The notes under the pieces were generated by a model that was not told the DNA's origin, did not search any database, and saw only the letters and a list, made by a program, of their open reading frames with translations. From NCBI GenBank assembly GCA_003221695.1, contig QHSX01000040.1:124001-188000 (forward strand): a stretch of DNA of 64,000 nt, given 5' to 3'. Origin of the DNA: Candidatus Rokuibacteriota bacterium (GTDB lineage Bacteria; Methylomirabilota; Methylomirabilia; Rokubacteriales; CSP1-6). Positions 47,264-58,835 of this stretch are shown one piece after another. The position numbers and the translations under genes are program-made. Numbering within the stretch: the stretch's first letter is position 1; each line of letters begins with the position of its first letter.

Positions 47264-47339
47264 GGGCGGATAGCTCAGCTGGGAGAGCGCGGCTCTTACA
47301 AGGCCGAGGTCAGAGGTTCGATCCCTCTTCCGCCCACCA
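47264..47339 (+). tRNA. tRNA-Val(TAC)
   Basis: 76 bases, complete cloverleaf: acceptor GGGCGGA/TCCGCCC, D arm GCTC-AGCTGGGA-GAGC, anticodon stem CGGCT/GGCCG with loop CTTACAA giving anticodon TAC (valine), T arm GAGG-TTCGATC-CCTC and an encoded CCA end. It starts 21 bases after the AOR stop and may be co-transcribed. Confidence 0.95.
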
Positions 47340-47364: not shown

Positions 47365-48168
47365 TTAGAGTGGTCGAGCGCGTAAGCGATAGTCGACAAT
47401 TTCCATCACCCACTTCCACAACCGGTCCTGGGCGGCGGGATCGGCGTTGGGTTGCACCTGGGCGCGCCAGCCCACCATCACTTCGCGCTCGACGGCCCAC
47501 AACCGCACACGCTGACGCGGGATGAGCGTTCGCCAGTGCTCGCCGACCTTGGGGCTCGCATAGATGAGCCGAACGGTGACATTCCGGGAGAGAAATTCCA
47601 ACGTACCGAAGTCGATCGTCTTGAACGAATCGGGCGCGCCGGCCTTAACGCCGGGAACATCAGGGATGCCATCGCTCACCACGATGATGGTGATTGGCGT
47701 GAGGACCAGGTTTCGTTCCTTAGTGATCCGCGCGACTTGGCGGAAGAACGCGCTGAAGTCCGTGAGGGGATCGGTTGGCGGAAACCACCGTTTCAAGTCC
47801 GCTTCGATCTGCGGGATGGTCTTCCCCGCGAAATCGTGGATCGGGCGAAACGCCTTCGGCTCATTGCTGTCCTTGCCGCCGATCGCTGCGACGAAGAGGT
47901 CTCGGGGTTTCGCCAGCCCACCCAGCTCGTTGACATGGCCGTAGAGGTAATACGCCAGGAACGTCATGGCGTCCTCGTACCCGGCATGGCGGAACGAACC
48001 GCTCGTGTCAACGCCGACGAAGAGGGTGCTGCGCGATAGTGGCTCAGTCGTATCGGCAGCCTGACCCGGTGCTATCGCGACCACGACACTAGCGGCTGCG
48101 AGGGACACGGCGATTCGCCGTAGAGACGCAACCCTGCCGCGTAGCCCCAGAGGAGCGAGTCTAACCAT
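47365..48168 (-). CDS. Exported VWA-like protein
   Basis: 267 aa from ATG 48168, which has a strong GGAGG five bases upstream; ATG 48240 overlapping the previous gene's stop (ATGA) is the other candidate and would put 24 residues before the signal. Sec signal RRIAVSLAAASVVVAIAPGQA, then a VWA-like domain with the MIDAS start FVGVDTSGSFR (DxSxS), TPITIIVVSDGIPDV and DFGTLEFLSRNVTVRLIYAS. VWA domains bind partners through a metal ion. Forms an operon with the next VWA gene upstream. Confidence 0.75.
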   Translation of the reverse strand: MVRLAPLGLRGRVASLRRIAVSLAAASVVVAIAPGQAADTTEPLSRSTLFVGVDTSGSFRHAGYEDAMTFLAYYLYGHVNELGGLAKPRDLFVAAIGGKDSNEPKAFRPIHDFAGKTIPQIEADLKRWFPPTDPLTDFSAFFRQVARITKERNLVLTPITIIVVSDGIPDVPGVKAGAPDSFKTIDFGTLEFLSRNVTVRLIYASPKVGEHWRTLIPRQRVRLWAVEREVMVGWRAQVQPNADPAAQDRLWKWVMEIVDYRLRARPL

Positions 48169-48236
48169 CGCACCTCCGCCTGCAGCTGATCGCGGATCGA
48201 CCCAATCCGGATCAGCCGATCCCGGGGGCGTTGCCT

Positions 48237-49025
48237 TCATTCCAGGCGACAGGACTGAGACGGGGGCCAATGAAGAAGGACATGAGCATACCGGCTCGGG
48301 TGCATGTCGGCCCCGGTCCGCCGGAAGTAGGCTTCCCAGAAGCGGGCGATGTTCTCCGCGAGCGCTGCGGACTTGGCGGACGCGCCCGACACGTAGACGC
48401 ACACGCCTGGCAGCTCCGGGACGAGCGCTTTGGTCCCGAGCTCGGCCAGAAGCCTCTCCATGGCAGACGGACTCCACGCGATCTTCTCGAAGTTGTACTC
48501 GGGCGTGTCTTCGATCATGTCCGACATCAGCACCAACACCTTTCGCCTGGCCTCGTTGTGGAACAACTTCTGGGCGATGAGGAGTGAGCTGAAGATGTCG
48601 GTGTACGGGCTCGAGTAACGCCTCCCCAAGACGTCCGCGACTTCTGTTTTGACCTTCGCCTTTAGGTCGAGGACCTGCGCGTCAACCTCCCTCACTCGAC
48701 GCTTGTATGTCAGGACGTTGTCCCGCCACCCGCTGAACTCGGGCTTGGCTGGCAAGATGACCTGGACGAGGGGACGGAACTCGGTGAGGGTCTTGTCGTG
48801 GATGGGCGCCATCAGAAGTCGGTCCCCTGCCGAGAGCGACGGCAGGATCTGCGTCTCGATCTCGCGCTGGTAGAGCGCACGCTCGCCACTCTTTATGCTC
48901 CCAGAGAAGTCTAGAAAGATGATGACGGCTGTCCCGGGTGACGTAGCGGCCATGCCAGGCGACAAGAACGCCTGCATCAAGAGGAGAATCGCGAGGGTTA
49001 TCGGCCGATGGCGCACGCCGACCAC
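48237..49025 (-). CDS. Exported VWA-domain protein
   Basis: 262 aa. Signal peptide with LAILLLMQAFLSPGMA, then VIIFLDFSGSIKSGERALY with the MIDAS motif DxSxS, a helical insert (TYKRRVREVDAQVLDLKAKV), and RKVLVLMSDMIEDTPEYNFE, a VWA beta strand followed by an acidic loop. Exported, probably periplasmic. Its partners are the second VWA protein downstream and the small exported protein upstream; the divergent two-component system may control all three. Confidence 0.75.
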   Translation of the reverse strand: MVGVRHRPITLAILLLMQAFLSPGMAATSPGTAVIIFLDFSGSIKSGERALYQREIETQILPSLSAGDRLLMAPIHDKTLTEFRPLVQVILPAKPEFSGWRDNVLTYKRRVREVDAQVLDLKAKVKTEVADVLGRRYSSPYTDIFSSLLIAQKLFHNEARRKVLVLMSDMIEDTPEYNFEKIAWSPSAMERLLAELGTKALVPELPGVCVYVSGASAKSAALAENIARFWEAYFRRTGADMHPSRYAHVLLHWPPSQSCRLE

Positions 49026-49040: not shown

Positions 49041-49292
49041 CTACGGTCCGCGACGCTCGCCTGGCGCGCGACTGGGGGACGGCGCGCGCAGCTCAGCTCG
49101 GCATTCTATGGCGACGGCCACTTGGTTGATCGTCGGATCGGTTGACAAGGCCGTCACCGCCGGGTCGCACGACGGCGCCAGCCCGAATCGCCGCCGAAGA
49201 TCGTCGATCGACAGCTTCTGGATGTCCATGAACTCGGCGGTCGTCATCAACAGGCTGACAGCGAGCAGAATTCGCCCAACACCTACTCTCAC
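49041..49292 (-). CDS. Small exported protein, function unknown
   Basis: 83 aa from GTG 49292. Sec-like N-terminus VGVGRILLAVSLLMTTAEFMD, then a short body with two cysteines (SCDPAV, IECRAE). It heads the VWA operon. A minus-strand TAAACT (49304-49299) lies six bases before the GTG, the same spacing seen for other genes here, which supports it being real. No homologue recognised. Confidence 0.5.
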   Translation of the reverse strand: MRVGVGRILLAVSLLMTTAEFMDIQKLSIDDLRRRFGLAPSCDPAVTALSTDPTINQVAVAIECRAELRAPSPSRAPGERRGP

Positions 49293-49315
49293 AGCCTGAG
49301 TTTACGAGATCGCGG

Positions 49316-49358
49316 CTGAAGATCCCCTGAAGGCAACCTGAATTTTCCTTCAGGTTGC
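49316..49358. promoter_or_regulatory. Four CTGAA elements at 11-bp spacing, including a perfect 10-bp palindrome
   Basis: CTGAA at 49316, 49327 and 49338, then the inverted TTCAG at 49349, are each exactly 11 bases apart, one helical turn. The last two form GCAACCTGAA-N6-TTCAGGTTGC (49333-49358). OmpR/PhoB-type regulators bind direct repeats with this period, so this is a good candidate operator for the adjacent response regulator, between its own gene and the VWA operon. Confidence 0.6.
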
Positions 49359-49394
49359 GCGCCGCGCGCGACCGGGCGATAGGATAAGACCGCG

Positions 49395-50081
49395 ATGCGA
49401 GTCCTCCTGATCGAGGACGACCGGAAGGCCGCAAGGCTCCTGGCCAAGGGGCTTCAGGAGGAGGGCTTCGTCGTCGACGTCGCCCCCACCGGCGAGGACG
49501 GCGAGGAGAAGGCCGCGGTGAACGAGTACGACCTGATCGTGCTCGACTGGCTTCTGCCCGGGAAGGACGGGCTCGCGGTCTGCCGCGCCCTCCGCGCGTG
49601 CGGCAGCTCCACCCCGATCCTGATGCTGACCGCGCGTGACAGCGTCGCCGACCGCGTCAGCGGTCTCAGCACCGGCGCGGATGATTTCCTCACCAAGCCC
49701 TTCGCCTTTGCCGAGCTACTCGCACGCATCAGGGCCCTGCTCCGTCGGTCGCGCGTCGCCCAGCCCCCCGTGCTGCGGGTGGCCGACCTGGCGCTCGACC
49801 CGGCGACCCGCCGGGTCACCCGCGGAGACGGCCCGGTCACCCTCACCCCAAGGGAGTACGCGATCCTCGAGGTGCTGATGCGGAACGCCGGCGAGGTCGT
49901 GAGCCGTACCCGCCTCGCCGAGCGGGTGTGGGACGACGCGTCGGATGTGCTTGACAACCTCCTCGATGTCCACGTGAGCCACCTCCGCACCAAGATCGAT
50001 CACGGAGCGAGCGTGCCGCTCATCCACACGATTCGCAGTGTCGGCTATCGGTTGGGACCGCCGGACTCGGCGGAACCATGA
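49395..50081 (+). CDS. OmpR-family response regulator
   Basis: 228 aa. Receiver domain with LLIEDDRKAARLL, phospho-Asp in YDLIVLDWLLPGKDG and Lys in DDFLTKPFAFAELLARI; C-terminal winged-helix DNA-binding domain with LTPREYAILEVLMRNAGEVV and LDNLLDVHVSHLRTKID. TAGGAT (49380-49385) is nine bases before the ATG. Its stop overlaps the kinase start (ATGA). Confidence 0.94.
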   Translation: MRVLLIEDDRKAARLLAKGLQEEGFVVDVAPTGEDGEEKAAVNEYDLIVLDWLLPGKDGLAVCRALRACGSSTPILMLTARDSVADRVSGLSTGADDFLTKPFAFAELLARIRALLRRSRVAQPPVLRVADLALDPATRRVTRGDGPVTLTPREYAILEVLMRNAGEVVSRTRLAERVWDDASDVLDNLLDVHVSHLRTKIDHGASVPLIHTIRSVGYRLGPPDSAEP

Positions 50082-51481
50082 GACCGCTCAGCTTCAAGAC
50101 CCGGCTCTGGCTCGGACACGTCGCGGTCCTGGCCGTGATGCTGATCCTCGCGGCGATCGGCGCCGACTGGGCGCTCCGCGGCGTGGTCCTCGGGCAAATC
50201 ATCGACGACGCGATCCTCTCACTGGCCTCGACAGAGGCGGCGGCGCTCCAGGCCGATCCCGGACAATCCATCCGTGTCCACGAAATCGCGCCCAGCGCGG
50301 GCCCGCCCTCGTTTGTGCGCCTCGACAAGTTCGTTCAGATCATCGACGCTGACGGACGGGTCGTGGCGCGGAGCGCGACGCTCGGCACGGCCCGCCTGCC
50401 GACGCCGGCCGCACTCCTCGCCCGATTGCGCGACGGTGAGACGGTGTTCGGGACCGTGACCGACTTCGGCGAGGAACCGATTCGCATGGTGTCCCTCCCG
50501 GTTGACGCCCGGTGGGCCCGCTATGCCATCCAGGTGGCGATGTCGCTGGACGACGCGTACGCCGTATTGCGGTTTGGTCGATGGCTCTTCGTCGGGATGT
50601 CACTGGTCATCCTCGCTGGGATCGGGCTAACCGGCGCCCTGCTCGCCCGCCGCGCCCTCCGGCCAATCGACGACATGGTGACGCAGGCTCGGCGCATCGG
50701 CGAGGCGAACCTCGCCGAGCGCCTGCCCCACCCAGGGCCGCGAGACGAGATCGGCCGGCTCGTCGAGACGCTCAACGACATGCTCGACCGGCTCGAGCGG
50801 AGCTTCGAGGCCCAACGTCGCTTCACCGCCGACGCCTCGCACGAGCTCCGTTCACCGCTCTCACGTCTCCGGGCAGAGCTGGAGGTAACGCTGCGCCGAC
50901 CGCGGCCGGCGCGCGAGTACGAGGAGACGCTGCGCTCGTGCCTGGACGAGGTGCGGCGCGTCCAAGAGTTGATCGAGGAACTTCTCGGGCTCGCGCGCAT
51001 CGACGCGCGCCAGGAGCCCGAGCCGGCCAAGCCCATTGCCGTGAGCGAGATCGTCGAGGCGGCCGTGGCGGCGGTGAGGCCGGAGGCGGAGCGGCGCGGC
51101 GTGACGGTCGCGGTCGAGCGTCCACCGGAGCTTCTCGTGAACGCCGCGCCGGGCGCCGCCAAGGTCGCGCTCGCCAACATCCTCGACAACGCCGTGAAGT
51201 TCTCGCCGACCGGCGGTCAGGTTCGGATCGTCGTCACGATGGGTCGGGAGGAAGCGGTCATCGCCGTCTCGGACACTGGGCCAGGCGTCTCGCCGCAAGA
51301 GGTGGCGAGGCTCTTCGAGCGCTTCTACCGGGGCAAAGCCTCGCACTTGATGGACGTGCCAGGCTTCGGCCTTGGGCTGGCGATCTCGCGGGCACTCGTC
51401 GAGCGCCAGGGCGGGCGGATCTCCGTGGTGGCGCGGACGGAGAAGGGCGCGACGTTCGCCGTGCACCTCTCGCGTGCCTGA
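50078..51481 (+). CDS. Membrane histidine kinase
   Basis: 467 aa. Two membrane helices (LAVMLILAAIGADWAL and LFVGMSLVILAGIGLTGALL) flank a ~130-residue periplasmic sensor; then HAMP (RRALRPIDDMVTQARRIGEA), HisKA with the phospho-His in ADASHELRSPLSRLR, and HATPase_c with NILDNAVKFSP, DTGPGVSPQEV and GFGLGLAISRALV. Coupled to the response regulator; senses an envelope signal, possibly related to the neighbouring exported VWA proteins. Confidence 0.93.
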   Translation: MRPLSFKTRLWLGHVAVLAVMLILAAIGADWALRGVVLGQIIDDAILSLASTEAAALQADPGQSIRVHEIAPSAGPPSFVRLDKFVQIIDADGRVVARSATLGTARLPTPAALLARLRDGETVFGTVTDFGEEPIRMVSLPVDARWARYAIQVAMSLDDAYAVLRFGRWLFVGMSLVILAGIGLTGALLARRALRPIDDMVTQARRIGEANLAERLPHPGPRDEIGRLVETLNDMLDRLERSFEAQRRFTADASHELRSPLSRLRAELEVTLRRPRPAREYEETLRSCLDEVRRVQELIEELLGLARIDARQEPEPAKPIAVSEIVEAAVAAVRPEAERRGVTVAVERPPELLVNAAPGAAKVALANILDNAVKFSPTGGQVRIVVTMGREEAVIAVSDTGPGVSPQEVARLFERFYRGKASHLMDVPGFGLGLAISRALVERQGGRISVVARTEKGATFAVHLSRA

Positions 51482-55314: not shown

Positions 55315-55830
55315 CTACCTGTCGTTGAAGAGCCCGAACAGCCACTGGCCGATCAGACCCATGACGGGAGGCAGGAGGATGCCGGGAAGACAGCGCGCCA
55401 GGGTCAGGGGCCAGCCTAACAAGGGCGCCTCGTAGGTCAGCATGCGGATCGGGCTCACCAGCGTCTTGGCCGTGAGCAGGGTGATGAGCGGTCCCGGCGC
55501 GGCACCACTGCGAAAGAGATTCGCGGCAACGGGGAAGAGGAGGTACGGGCCCCCGGGGATCGCCAGGCCAGCCACCCAGCCCATCAGGATGCCCTGCGCC
55601 ATGTGCTCCGCCCCGAGCCAGCGAGAGAGGACGGGTTGGGGGATCAACACGTCGAGGAGCCCGGCCAGCAGGAAGCCGAGGAGCAGCTCGGGCCACACGC
55701 CCCTCAGGAGCTTGCCGGTCGCAAGCAGGCCGCGAACGGGCAGGGCCGCGTCCTTGGCAAAGGCGACGAGCAGCGCGACGCCCAGGAGCCCGGTGAGGAT
55801 CCAGGTGCTGACGTCCACGCGTCGTGTCAC
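55315..55830 (-). CDS. Half-size permease-like membrane protein coupled to the pqq operon
   Basis: 171 aa with about five membrane segments, e.g. WILTGLLGVALLVAFAKDAA, ELLLGFLLAGLLDVLIP, AIPGGPYLLFPVAANLFRSG and CLPGILLPPVMGLIGQWLFG. It resembles one half of the DUF318/UPF0718 permeases, with PGGP where those usually have a Cys-rich turn. GTG 55830 overlaps the pqqE stop (GTGA), so it is the last gene of the PQQ operon. Possible roles are export of PQQ or an intermediate; this is inference from position. Confidence 0.75.
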   Translation of the reverse strand: MTRRVDVSTWILTGLLGVALLVAFAKDAALPVRGLLATGKLLRGVWPELLLGFLLAGLLDVLIPQPVLSRWLGAEHMAQGILMGWVAGLAIPGGPYLLFPVAANLFRSGAAPGPLITLLTAKTLVSPIRMLTYEAPLLGWPLTLARCLPGILLPPVMGLIGQWLFGLFNDR

Positions 55831-56924
55831 TTCCGGACGGCGGGCCGCGGTGCCCGGTACTCGAAGCCGTCGTCAGGCGCCGAGAGCGCTTCCTGGCGCG
55901 CGGCCTCGATGAGCCCGTGGTCGGGCGACAGCGAGCACGCCGGGTCGGTCGCCGCCGCGTTCTTCGTCAAGAGATAGGCCTGGCACCGACAGCCACCGAA
56001 GTCGATCGCGCGCCGCTCGCAGCTCTTGCAAGGCTCGGGCATCCAGGCGTCACCGCGGAAGGCGTTGAAGGCCGGCGAGTCGCGCCAGATCGCCTCGAGC
56101 GGGCGGTCCTTGACATTTTCGAACACGAGCCCCGGCAGCGTGTGAGCCGCGTGGCAGGGTAGGGCCAGGCCGTCGGGGCTGACCACGAGAAAGCGCCGGG
56201 CCCAGCCGTCCATACACGCCTTCGGGAACTCGGAATAGTAGTCGGGCATGACGAAGAGAACTTCCATTTTGCCTCGGAGCCGCGCGTGCGCCGCGGCGCT
56301 CACCCGTCGCGCCCCATCCAGCTGGGCGGCGGTCGGCAGCAGGACGCGCCGGTTCACGAGGGCCCAGCCCACATACTGCGTGTTGGCCAGCTCCAGGCGG
56401 TCCGCCGCGAGCGCCTCGGCCAGCGCGACGATCTCCTCGACGTGTCCGAGGTTCTCCCGATGCAACACGACGTTGAGCGTCAGCGGGAATCCGAGCTCCT
56501 TGACCCAGCGCGCGACCTGGAGCTTCCGCTCGAAGACGCGCGCGCCGGCCACGCGGTCCGAGCTCGGCGCGGCAACATCCTGGATGGAGACCTGCACGTT
56601 GTCGAGCCCGAGGGAGCGGAAGCGCGCGAGACGCTCACGGCTCAGCGGGATGCCGCTCGTGATGAGATTGGTGTAGAGATCGGCGGCCCGCGCGCCCTCG
56701 ACGAGGGCCTCCAGATCGTCCCGGAGGACGGGCTCGCCGCCCGTGAGGTGGAGCTGGACGACCCCGAGCTCCTCGGCTTCGCGAAACACGCGGAGCCAGT
56801 CCGCCGTGTCGAGCCCGTCCGTGTGGCGTGTGTACTCCACGGGGTTCGAGCAGTACACGCAGCGGAGCGGGCACCGGTACGTCAGCTCGGCGACGAGGGT
56901 GTACGGACGATACTCGTCGCTCAC
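55827..56924 (-). CDS. pqqE: PQQ biosynthesis radical SAM enzyme PqqE
   Basis: 365 aa. Radical SAM motif CPLRCVYCSNP (CxxxCxxC), HLTGGEPVLRDDLE, and a C-terminal SPASM domain with CHAAHTLPG, EPCKSCERRAIDFGGCRCQA. PqqE joins the Glu and Tyr side chains of PqqA with PqqD as chaperone. GTG start overlaps pqqD by four bases. Confidence 0.95.
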   Translation of the reverse strand: MSDEYRPYTLVAELTYRCPLRCVYCSNPVEYTRHTDGLDTADWLRVFREAEELGVVQLHLTGGEPVLRDDLEALVEGARAADLYTNLITSGIPLSRERLARFRSLGLDNVQVSIQDVAAPSSDRVAGARVFERKLQVARWVKELGFPLTLNVVLHRENLGHVEEIVALAEALAADRLELANTQYVGWALVNRRVLLPTAAQLDGARRVSAAAHARLRGKMEVLFVMPDYYSEFPKACMDGWARRFLVVSPDGLALPCHAAHTLPGLVFENVKDRPLEAIWRDSPAFNAFRGDAWMPEPCKSCERRAIDFGGCRCQAYLLTKNAAATDPACSLSPDHGLIEAARQEALSAPDDGFEYRAPRPAVRK

Positions 56925-57202
56925 GGGTCGGTCCGCATCAGGCCGCGCTCGGCGAGGGTGGCCAGAAACGCCATGACGTCGCGCTCCACCTGCGCTCGCG
57001 GTTGGGAGGCGTACTTCTCCGTGAGACGCTCGACGATCGTGTGAACCGTGTGCTCGCCGGTGCAGAGCGCGGCGATGTCGGCGGCCGTCGGGTTCAGCAC
57101 GAGACCGCGCTCGGGGTACAGCAGGAGGTACCGCGCCGTCTTGCGGTCGAAGCGGATCCGCGCTTTCGGGGCGAGCCGCGGACGGCTGTCCAGGGCGATC
57201 AC
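56921..57202 (-). CDS. pqqD: PQQ biosynthesis peptide chaperone PqqD
   Basis: 93 aa. RPRLAPKARIRFDRKTARYL, LLYPERGLVLNPTAADI and the helical C-terminus (ERDVMAFLATLAERGLM) are the PqqD/RRE pattern. It holds PqqA for PqqE. GTG start within pqqC's stop (GTGA). Confidence 0.93.
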   Translation of the reverse strand: MIALDSRPRLAPKARIRFDRKTARYLLLYPERGLVLNPTAADIAALCTGEHTVHTIVERLTEKYASQPRAQVERDVMAFLATLAERGLMRTDP

Positions 57203-57918
57203 GCGCGGGCGCCCGCCGATCCCCAGCCCGGCTCGATGTAGGCCGTGTACACGCAGTCGAGGAGGTGCCAGAGCACCTCGGTCTTTCGGATGAGCGCGGC
57301 CACACAGCGCTCCTGGAGCTCGTAGCTCCGCGCGTGGCGGACCACGTAGTCGATGGCCTCTTCCGAGTCGCGGCGCGCTCGCGGCACGCGCGACCGGAAA
57401 TACTCGAGCATGTCGCGGCTCACCCACGGGTAGTGACGTTCCCAGGCGAGCACGCGCTTCTGCATCAGGTCCGGCGCGAAGAACTCGGTGAGCGAGGAGG
57501 CCACCGCCTCCACGAGGCTTCGCTCCCGCACGAGCTCGACGTAACCGTCGCAGGCGAAGCGGACCCCGGGGAGCACCGACCGACAGCTCGCGACCTCGTC
57601 GCGATCGAGGCCCACCCCCGCGGCCAGCCGGAGCCAGAGCTCGAGCCCGCCGTCCTCGGCGTCGTGGTCCTGGATGCGGTGGATCCACATGCGCCGGAAC
57701 GCCGGGTCGTCGGACTTCGACAGAATGATCGCGTCCTTGATCGGGATCCGCGTCTGGTAGTAGTACCGGTTGAGCACCCACTGCTGGAGCTGAACCTGGG
57801 TGAGCTTGCCGTCGTGCATGAGCGCGTGATAGCGATGGTGGTCGTGGTAGCGGCGCTCGCCCTCTCGCCGGATCCATTCGATGAAATCATCTCTCGACAG
57901 GGGCGCGCTCTCGGTCAT
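57199..57918 (-). CDS. pqqC: Pyrroloquinoline-quinone synthase PqqC
   Basis: 239 aa all-helical oxidase that closes the ring and does the final oxidation of PQQ. RYHDHHRYHALMHDGKLT, QQWVLNRYYYQTRIPIKDAI and WVSRDMLEYFRSR are family signatures with the substrate-binding His, Arg and Tyr. ATG overlaps the pqqB stop (ATGA). Confidence 0.95.
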   Translation of the reverse strand: MTESAPLSRDDFIEWIRREGERRYHDHHRYHALMHDGKLTQVQLQQWVLNRYYYQTRIPIKDAIILSKSDDPAFRRMWIHRIQDHDAEDGGLELWLRLAAGVGLDRDEVASCRSVLPGVRFACDGYVELVRERSLVEAVASSLTEFFAPDLMQKRVLAWERHYPWVSRDMLEYFRSRVPRARRDSEEAIDYVVRHARSYELQERCVAALIRKTEVLWHLLDCVYTAYIEPGWGSAGARA

Positions 57919-58835
57919 AGCGTGATCTCCATCCCGTCGTAGGCGATCTCCCAGCCGGCCGTCGTGACGCTGGCGCGCTCGGGTGAGTCTTCGCGCAGGA
58001 GCGGGTTCGTGTTGTTGAGATGGATGTAGATCTTCCGCGCGGCTCCGAGCGTCGCCAGCTGCCTGGCGCTGCCAGCGGGGCCACCGACAGGGAGGTGGGC
58101 CATGTCCTCGGCGCGCTTTTCGCCGAGGCCGAGAGTCCTGAGCTCGTCGCTCGACCAGAACGTGCCGTCGAAGAAGACGCAGTCGGCGCCGTCGAGAGCC
58201 TGGCGCACCGACTCCGTCACGGCCCCCACACCGGACACGTACGCGAGCACGCGCCCGGTCCGCTCCTCCAGGATCCTCAAGCCGACGTTGTCGTCGGGAT
58301 CGGGCGGCATGAGCCCTTCCAGGTGCACGGGCGGCTTGCCAGGCACGGGCAGGGCCTCGACGACGAGCCCGCTCTCACGGCCGTCGACGCCGAGCAGTTC
58401 CTCGCGCCGGCCGGGCTTGAGGGTCCGCCACGTCACCTGGCCGGGGAAACGCTCGAGCGTGCGATGCAGCACGTTCTTCTCGGCGAACCCGACGCGCACG
58501 CGCTCGGTCGCGTAGACGAGCAGCGGGTGCGATTCCCGGAGCGAGAGGAGCCCGAGGCAGTGGTCCAGATCACCGTTCGTGAGCAGGAGCGCCTGGATCG
58601 GCGAATGGCGGCGGTCGCGTGGATGGAGCGCTGGGAAGCCCTCGATCTGCGCTCGAATCTCGGGCGAGGTGTTCAGGAGAAACCAACCCCGGCCGTCAGC
58701 GCTGATCGCCACGGATTCCTGGGTGCGCGCGACGGCGGCCAGCGTGCCGTCGCGGATCCCGCGGCAATTCGGGCACCCACAGTTCCACTGCGGGAACCCG
58801 CCCCCGGCCGCCGAGCCCAGTACCCGGATCAGCAC
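57915..58835 (-). CDS. pqqB: PQQ biosynthesis protein PqqB
   Basis: 306 aa metallo-beta-lactamase-fold protein. VLGSAAGGGFPQWNCGCPNC opens it; LLTNGDLDHCLGLLSL replaces the usual HxHxDH, as is normal for PqqB, and IHLNNTNPLL is near the end. It is thought to hydroxylate the tyrosine-derived part. pqqA is 77 bases upstream. Confidence 0.95.
   Translation of the reverse strand: MLIRVLGSAAGGGFPQWNCGCPNCRGIRDGTLAAVARTQESVAISADGRGWFLLNTSPEIRAQIEGFPALHPRDRRHSPIQALLLTNGDLDHCLGLLSLRESHPLLVYATERVRVGFAEKNVLHRTLERFPGQVTWRTLKPGRREELLGVDGRESGLVVEALPVPGKPPVHLEGLMPPDPDDNVGLRILEERTGRVLAYVSGVGAVTESVRQALDGADCVFFDGTFWSSDELRTLGLGEKRAEDMAHLPVGGPAGSARQLATLGAARKIYIHLNNTNPLLREDSPERASVTTAGWEIAYDGMEITL

Follow-up and report, generated by a model that had tools for sequence, protein, structure and literature searches.

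A CTGAA-site array as the probable operator of a CopR/CzcR-like two-component system in Candidatus Rokuibacteriota

Class-II activation by PhoB relies on 11-bp tandem sites, which replace the -35 element and lie about 10 bp before the -10 element. AgrR/CopR-type heavy-metal response regulators recognize a 16-bp inverted repeat accompanied by in-phase direct repeats, and they act from the class-II position on promoters that lack a good -35 element, according to the sections of PMC7380067 drawn upon here. The PmrA box, as presented in the excerpts of PMC3973317 used throughout, consists of 11-bp direct half-sites (CTTAAT/CCTAAG). Judged by its sequence, the array described below unites the AgrR/CopR and PmrA geometries with a different half-site. 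A search of open-licence PMC for the literal array strings found no paper, and the matches listed by the other literature searches were analogues only.

The array occupies positions 49316-49353 of the window, by which we mean the whole 64,000-nucleotide stretch analysed. It comprises three CTGAA pentamers (49316-49320, 49327-49331 and 49338-49342) and the inverted pentamer TTCAG (49349-49353), and direct reading of the intergenic sequence places all four in one 11-bp register. This confirms the arrangement given in the earlier note, namely three direct sites and one inverted site at exact 11-bp steps; the span given there, 49316-49358, starts correctly and ends slightly too late, as the sites stop at 49353. 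The pair CTGAA-N6-CTGAA is matched twice in the window, both times at the array, where shuffled sequences lead one to expect 0.02 matches. Genome-wide it has three matches, two of them at the array, and the reversed control pattern has none; the three-site pattern, with up to two mismatches permitted, occurs once in the 4.6-Mb genome.

The genes on either side are laid out as had been claimed. On the plus strand, an OmpR/PhoB-family response regulator (49395-50081; recognition helix LLDVHVSHLRTK) is overlapped by a sensor histidine kinase with HAMP, HisKA and HATPase_c domains (50078-51481). On the minus strand lie an 83-aa small ORF with a GTG start, a signal-like N terminus and two conserved cysteines (49041-49292), VWA1 (262 aa, 48237-49025) and VWA2 (291 aa, 47365-48240), the last two carrying, by eye, the MIDAS-like signatures DxSGS..T..D and DTSGS, respectively. 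The ATG of VWA2 at 48240 overlaps the stop codon of VWA1, and the same overlap is found in a second genome of the genus (G002). The VWA operon ends facing a convergent tRNA-Val gene (tac; 47264-47339, plus strand). Elsewhere in the window, minus-strand ORFs at 55827-58835 resemble PqqB, PqqC and PqqE by eye and form a PQQ synthesis cluster.

Set against the AgrR/CopR/PcoR group, the locus shares an OmpR-family regulator, a class-II position, a -10 element without a good -35 and autoregulation, the last three being predicted here (PMC7380067, in the sections noted above). The geometry likewise agrees, in that CTGAA-N6-TTCAG spans 16 bp and two more sites follow at 11-bp steps. The core, however, reads CTGAATTTTCCTTCAG where the consensus given in those sections of PMC7380067 has ATKACANNNNTGTMAT; the half-site is CTGAA rather than ATKACA, and here three direct repeats aim at the target gene. 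The head-to-tail half-sites at 11-bp spacing recall PmrA/BasR, as does a histidine of the recognition helix, a correspondence drawn by eye, and CTGAA differs by one or two bases from CTTAA and CCTAA, including the third half-site base; the PmrA box, in the excerpts of PMC3973317, has two half-sites, whereas the array has three and an inverted one. Like the PhoB arrangement, the array has 11-bp tandem sites in the place of the -35 element, but with another half-site and another regulon.

On the VWA side the sites are part of a directional module, TTCAG-N6-TTCAG-N6-TTCAG-N11-TAAACT-N6-GTG, in which the proposed -10 element TAAACT (49299-49304, minus strand) is spaced 11 bp from the proximal TTCAG and 6 bp from the start codon of the small ORF. 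A rigid promoter scan found no sigma-70 -35/-10 pair in the region. The gap between -10 and start codon is exactly 6 bases in seven modules, which implies a leaderless transcript, and the small-ORF operon is therefore apparently leaderless. The regulator gene has a proposed -10 element, TAGGAT (49380-49385, plus strand), recognized by eye 9 bp before its ATG and kept in the genus and in G025, a member of another genus; the 26 bp that separate it from the nearest site depart from the geometry of the module.

The module recurs in the phylum: TTCAGx3-N11-TA, with at most one mismatch, is found 13 times in 11 of 95 genomes, and its reversed control is not found at all. A scan of 84,980 genomes for CTGAA-N6-CTGAA-N6-CTGAA-N6-TTCA yielded 63 stretches from many phyla with 67 matches counted, some of which are simple tandem repeats, where arithmetic for uniform random sequence gives about two. 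By a crude ORF caller, 55 of the 67 matches lie outside any frame of at least 100 aa, and for these a gene start is found within 400 bp more often on the CTGAA side (37/55) than on the TTCAG side (23/55). On the CTGAA side, 21 of 57 non-Rokubacterial rows have a TANNNT element that begins 10 or 11 bp past the final TTCAG, as against a mean of 1.5 and a maximum of 8 in 2000 shuffles, and so do 7 of 9 Rokubacterial rows; on the opposite side it is present in 2 of the 57. These offsets were picked after viewing the sequences, several rows share a genus or genome, and one match near an end was left out of the tally.

The receiver and winged-helix domains of the regulator score 97.1 and 91.7 bits against Pfam cut-offs of 30.2 and 26.2 (PF00072 and PF00486, Trans_reg_C), which places it in the OmpR/PhoB family. 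Among 90 NCBIfam models its best is TIGR01387, the heavy-metal response regulators of the CopR/CzcR subfamily, at 252.2 bits, below the curated cut-off of 279.2, unlike the heavy-metal regulators of the AgrR/CopR/PcoR type. The kinase likewise finds its best model in TIGR01386, the CopS/CzcS heavy-metal sensor kinases, at 225.7 bits, below the cut-off of 292.55. In G002 the VWA operon extends beyond VWA2: 45 bp further on come genes for a CDF transporter and a GDT1 antiporter. In G056 the regulator-kinase pair and an efflux operon with HlyD_D23 (CusB-like) and ACR_tran proteins lie on opposite sides of the array. Near other orthologues there are CDF, ABC-3 and HupE proteins as well as additional RND pumps. 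The source genome has no metal transporter adjoining the array, so that the metal signal is read from its relatives. As to the new envelope system that had been suggested as possible, the family-wide context points instead to divalent-metal homeostasis.

We consider it probable that the adjacent CopR/CzcR-like system, itself probably metal-responsive, uses the array as its operator and activates the small-protein operon along with its own genes, with the VWA pair as a lineage-specific passenger. From the sites, their conservation, the promoter geometry and the gene neighbourhoods as observed, we infer the following course. The adjacent regulator would occupy the array; as 11 bp separate the last of the three minus-strand TTCAG repeats from a -10 element that has no -35, it would be a class-II activator of the leaderless operon that encodes the small exported protein, VWA1 and VWA2. 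The fourth, inverted site would form with the third the pair CCTGAA-N6-TTCAGG and serve the divergent regulator-kinase promoter in autoregulation. The likely signal would be an excess of a divalent transition metal, and the VWA pair would have been recruited from families that have other homes.

A weaker but tenable case can be made that the adjacent regulator does use the array as its operator but that the system responds to damage of the envelope or to some other cue in the periplasm, such as cationic peptides or redox state, in the manner of PmrA or QseB, metals being incidental. The half-site spacing equals that of the PmrA box in the excerpts of PMC3973317 (CTTAAT/CCTAAG with a 5-bp gap), the regulator scores 193 bits against the PmrA model, and every target of the array at this locus looks exported. 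However, the heavy-metal families provide the best-scoring models, RND, CDF, ABC-3 and GDT1 genes recur near the orthologues, and no PmrA-type target (lipid A modification) was noticed in the annotated regions; we regard this as possible, with the odds against it.

Beyond the phylum the array stands before unrelated genes, which suggests that it marks a class of regulators rather than one pathway and that by itself it does not imply metal. Pfam finds PBP_like_2 in 7 of 30 array-flanking proteins and no single function among them; the 30 were hand-chosen from 60 listed references, among them proteins from array-overlapping frames and others from the TTCAG side. The PBP_like_2 (PstS-like) matches hint at a separate Burkholderiales regulon. 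Several Burkholderiales records (L110, L121, L122, L143 and L155) have the same four-site array. Roseithermus sacchariphilus has seven exact four-site matches on one chromosome (L095, L107, L115, L139, L145 and L157), some inside repetitive CTGAA-rich stretches. Two Bryobacterales arrays (L102 and L114) have as neighbours a kinase and a protein of 492 aa; multicopper oxidases account for two of the 30 proteins scanned, perhaps the ones found in these two records.

The assignment of the array to the adjacent regulator rests on 30 loci of homologues picked by protein similarity alone, 29 of them with upstream DNA. The three-site array, called with at most 2 of its 15 positions mismatched and no farther than 300 bp upstream, precedes 10 of 14 regulators with an SHLR motif in the recognition helix and none of 15 without it (Fisher p=5e-5, an optimistic value because the rows are related; the motif was picked after the recognition helices had been inspected). 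Among the SHLR regulators, one (L047) has no array upstream and another (L054) fits the array only with a 12-bp step; at L049 and L050 the inverted pair alone lies near the regulator and the full array 720-770 bp further up. By this comparison the presence of the array follows the recognition-helix motif of the adjacent regulator across genera, which supports the earlier reading of an OmpR/PhoB-type operator. It also speaks, together with the uniqueness of the array in the source genome, against the proposal that the array serves some other OmpR-type regulator and has the adjacent pair merely as its target; although a first look in the regulator search listed 86 candidates in that genome, and many records show same-site arrays with no regulator in the stretch retrieved, we hold this to be improbable. 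In a record of Candidatus Eisenbacteria (L127:1615-1651) the array precedes a regulator that shares 78% identity with the window's over the part matched, which suggests either transfer or mis-binning.

All four genomes examined from the genus have the four sites and, in the same divergent arrangement, the regulator, VWA1 and the small protein, and variable columns fall in 0 of 20 site positions versus 4 of 18 spacer positions (p=0.04); the relatives compared are mostly draft metagenome assemblies. The earlier note had staked its reading on the array, and on the neighbourhood of VWA genes and two-component system, being conserved in related genomes, and within the genus both held in 4/4, with the small protein and VWA1 beside the system. 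Elsewhere the VWA neighbourhood is not kept, except perhaps in G025, where the contigs break. The last two sites form, as had been stated, a perfect palindrome; its arms are 10 bp in the source genome (GCAACCTGAA / TTCAGGTTGC, 6-base loop), and of it the sister genomes keep only CCTGAA-N6-TTCAGG. That this palindrome acts as an RNA hairpin or terminator, with the direct repeats due to chance, is suggested by its perfect arms and short loop, but we rejected it as very improbable: the sisters keep the pentamers and not the outer arm bases, no terminator-like site was found in the region, and both transcripts would start outside the palindrome.

VWA2 follows VWA1 in the source genome (G000) and G002, and in G003 it lies past a run of unread bases; a search beside VWA1 in G001 did not find it. 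A VWA1-VWA2 fusion in G003 was dropped because its 500-aa frame passes through the unread bases. Both proteins are under purifying selection (dN/dS 0.20-0.28 for the two together and 0.21-0.28 for VWA1). Neither has a family match, a Pfam search to E 1 giving none, and a 68% identical paralogue reaches VWA_2 only at E=0.13. Their structure models are too poor to use (mean pLDDT 44-45), and one Foldseek search names several VWA domains weakly, the best at E=0.018. Of the 99 genomes searched, 16 have members of the VWA1 family, most of which belong to another operon of three genes that lacks the array and encodes a 103-aa coiled coil, a 344-aa protein and VWA1; homologues of VWA2 occur in 33 of 95 genomes, and the source genome has further paralogues, one of VWA1 in such an operon on contig C1 and one of VWA2 on C103. 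We accordingly set aside the VWA genes as the core of the system; since VWA1 homologues lie mostly in the array-free operon and paralogues are found elsewhere, the array-linked pair is probably a later, lineage-specific addition. G025 may share the pair, as a VWA2 85% identical in part lies at its contig end in two frames. The array-free operon is conserved in relatives (for example L030:7959-10124), where the 344-aa protein has no Pfam match and the VWA1-type product is lipoprotein-like. A search of open-licence PMC for Rokubacteria, two-component and von Willebrand together found no paper.

What the module more constantly precedes is the small protein, in the four genus genomes, G041 and G054, with ORFs of similar start in G053 and G055 and, where the contig of G025 ends, a start that looks signal-like. 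Downstream of other modules are a CusB/RND operon (G056), family-5 solute-binding proteins (G041 and G055) and one unrelated context (G037:C122). Thirteen of the 95 genomes encode a homologue of the small protein; the nearest outside the genus adjoin arrays, with a gap of 46 bp in G054 and an array alongside in G041, and that of G055 has a looser array, which follows a kinase tail. An array was not noted beside the three most distant of the 10 aligned members, which share 11 invariant residues including two cysteines. The predicted joint control of exported proteins and regulator was supported on both sides with a shift of target, since the module aims at the small protein, which stays at the array in another genus. 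As for its export, the ORF is present with a start that looks signal-like by eye, and no Pfam or NCBIfam model matches it or marks it as exported. Five pairs give it a dN/dS of 0.32-0.68, and the closest pair, in which few sites changed, gives 1.9; by this estimate its constraint is looser than that of VWA1 and VWA2. We offer, as a speculation more apt to fail than to hold, that it founds an undescribed exported two-cysteine family and is the constant output of the CTGAA-array regulon; it may be a periplasmic metal-binding or kinase-feedback subunit, coupled in this genus to a pair of MIDAS-bearing VWA proteins whose role would be to load the metal or deliver it.

For the uncultured Candidatus Rokuibacteriota, these observations supply a regulator together with an operator code and a set of target genes, all amenable to tests in a reporter strain. 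They also link an unannotated family of exported proteins, and VWA-like proteins that Pfam does not recognize, to a probable metal response.
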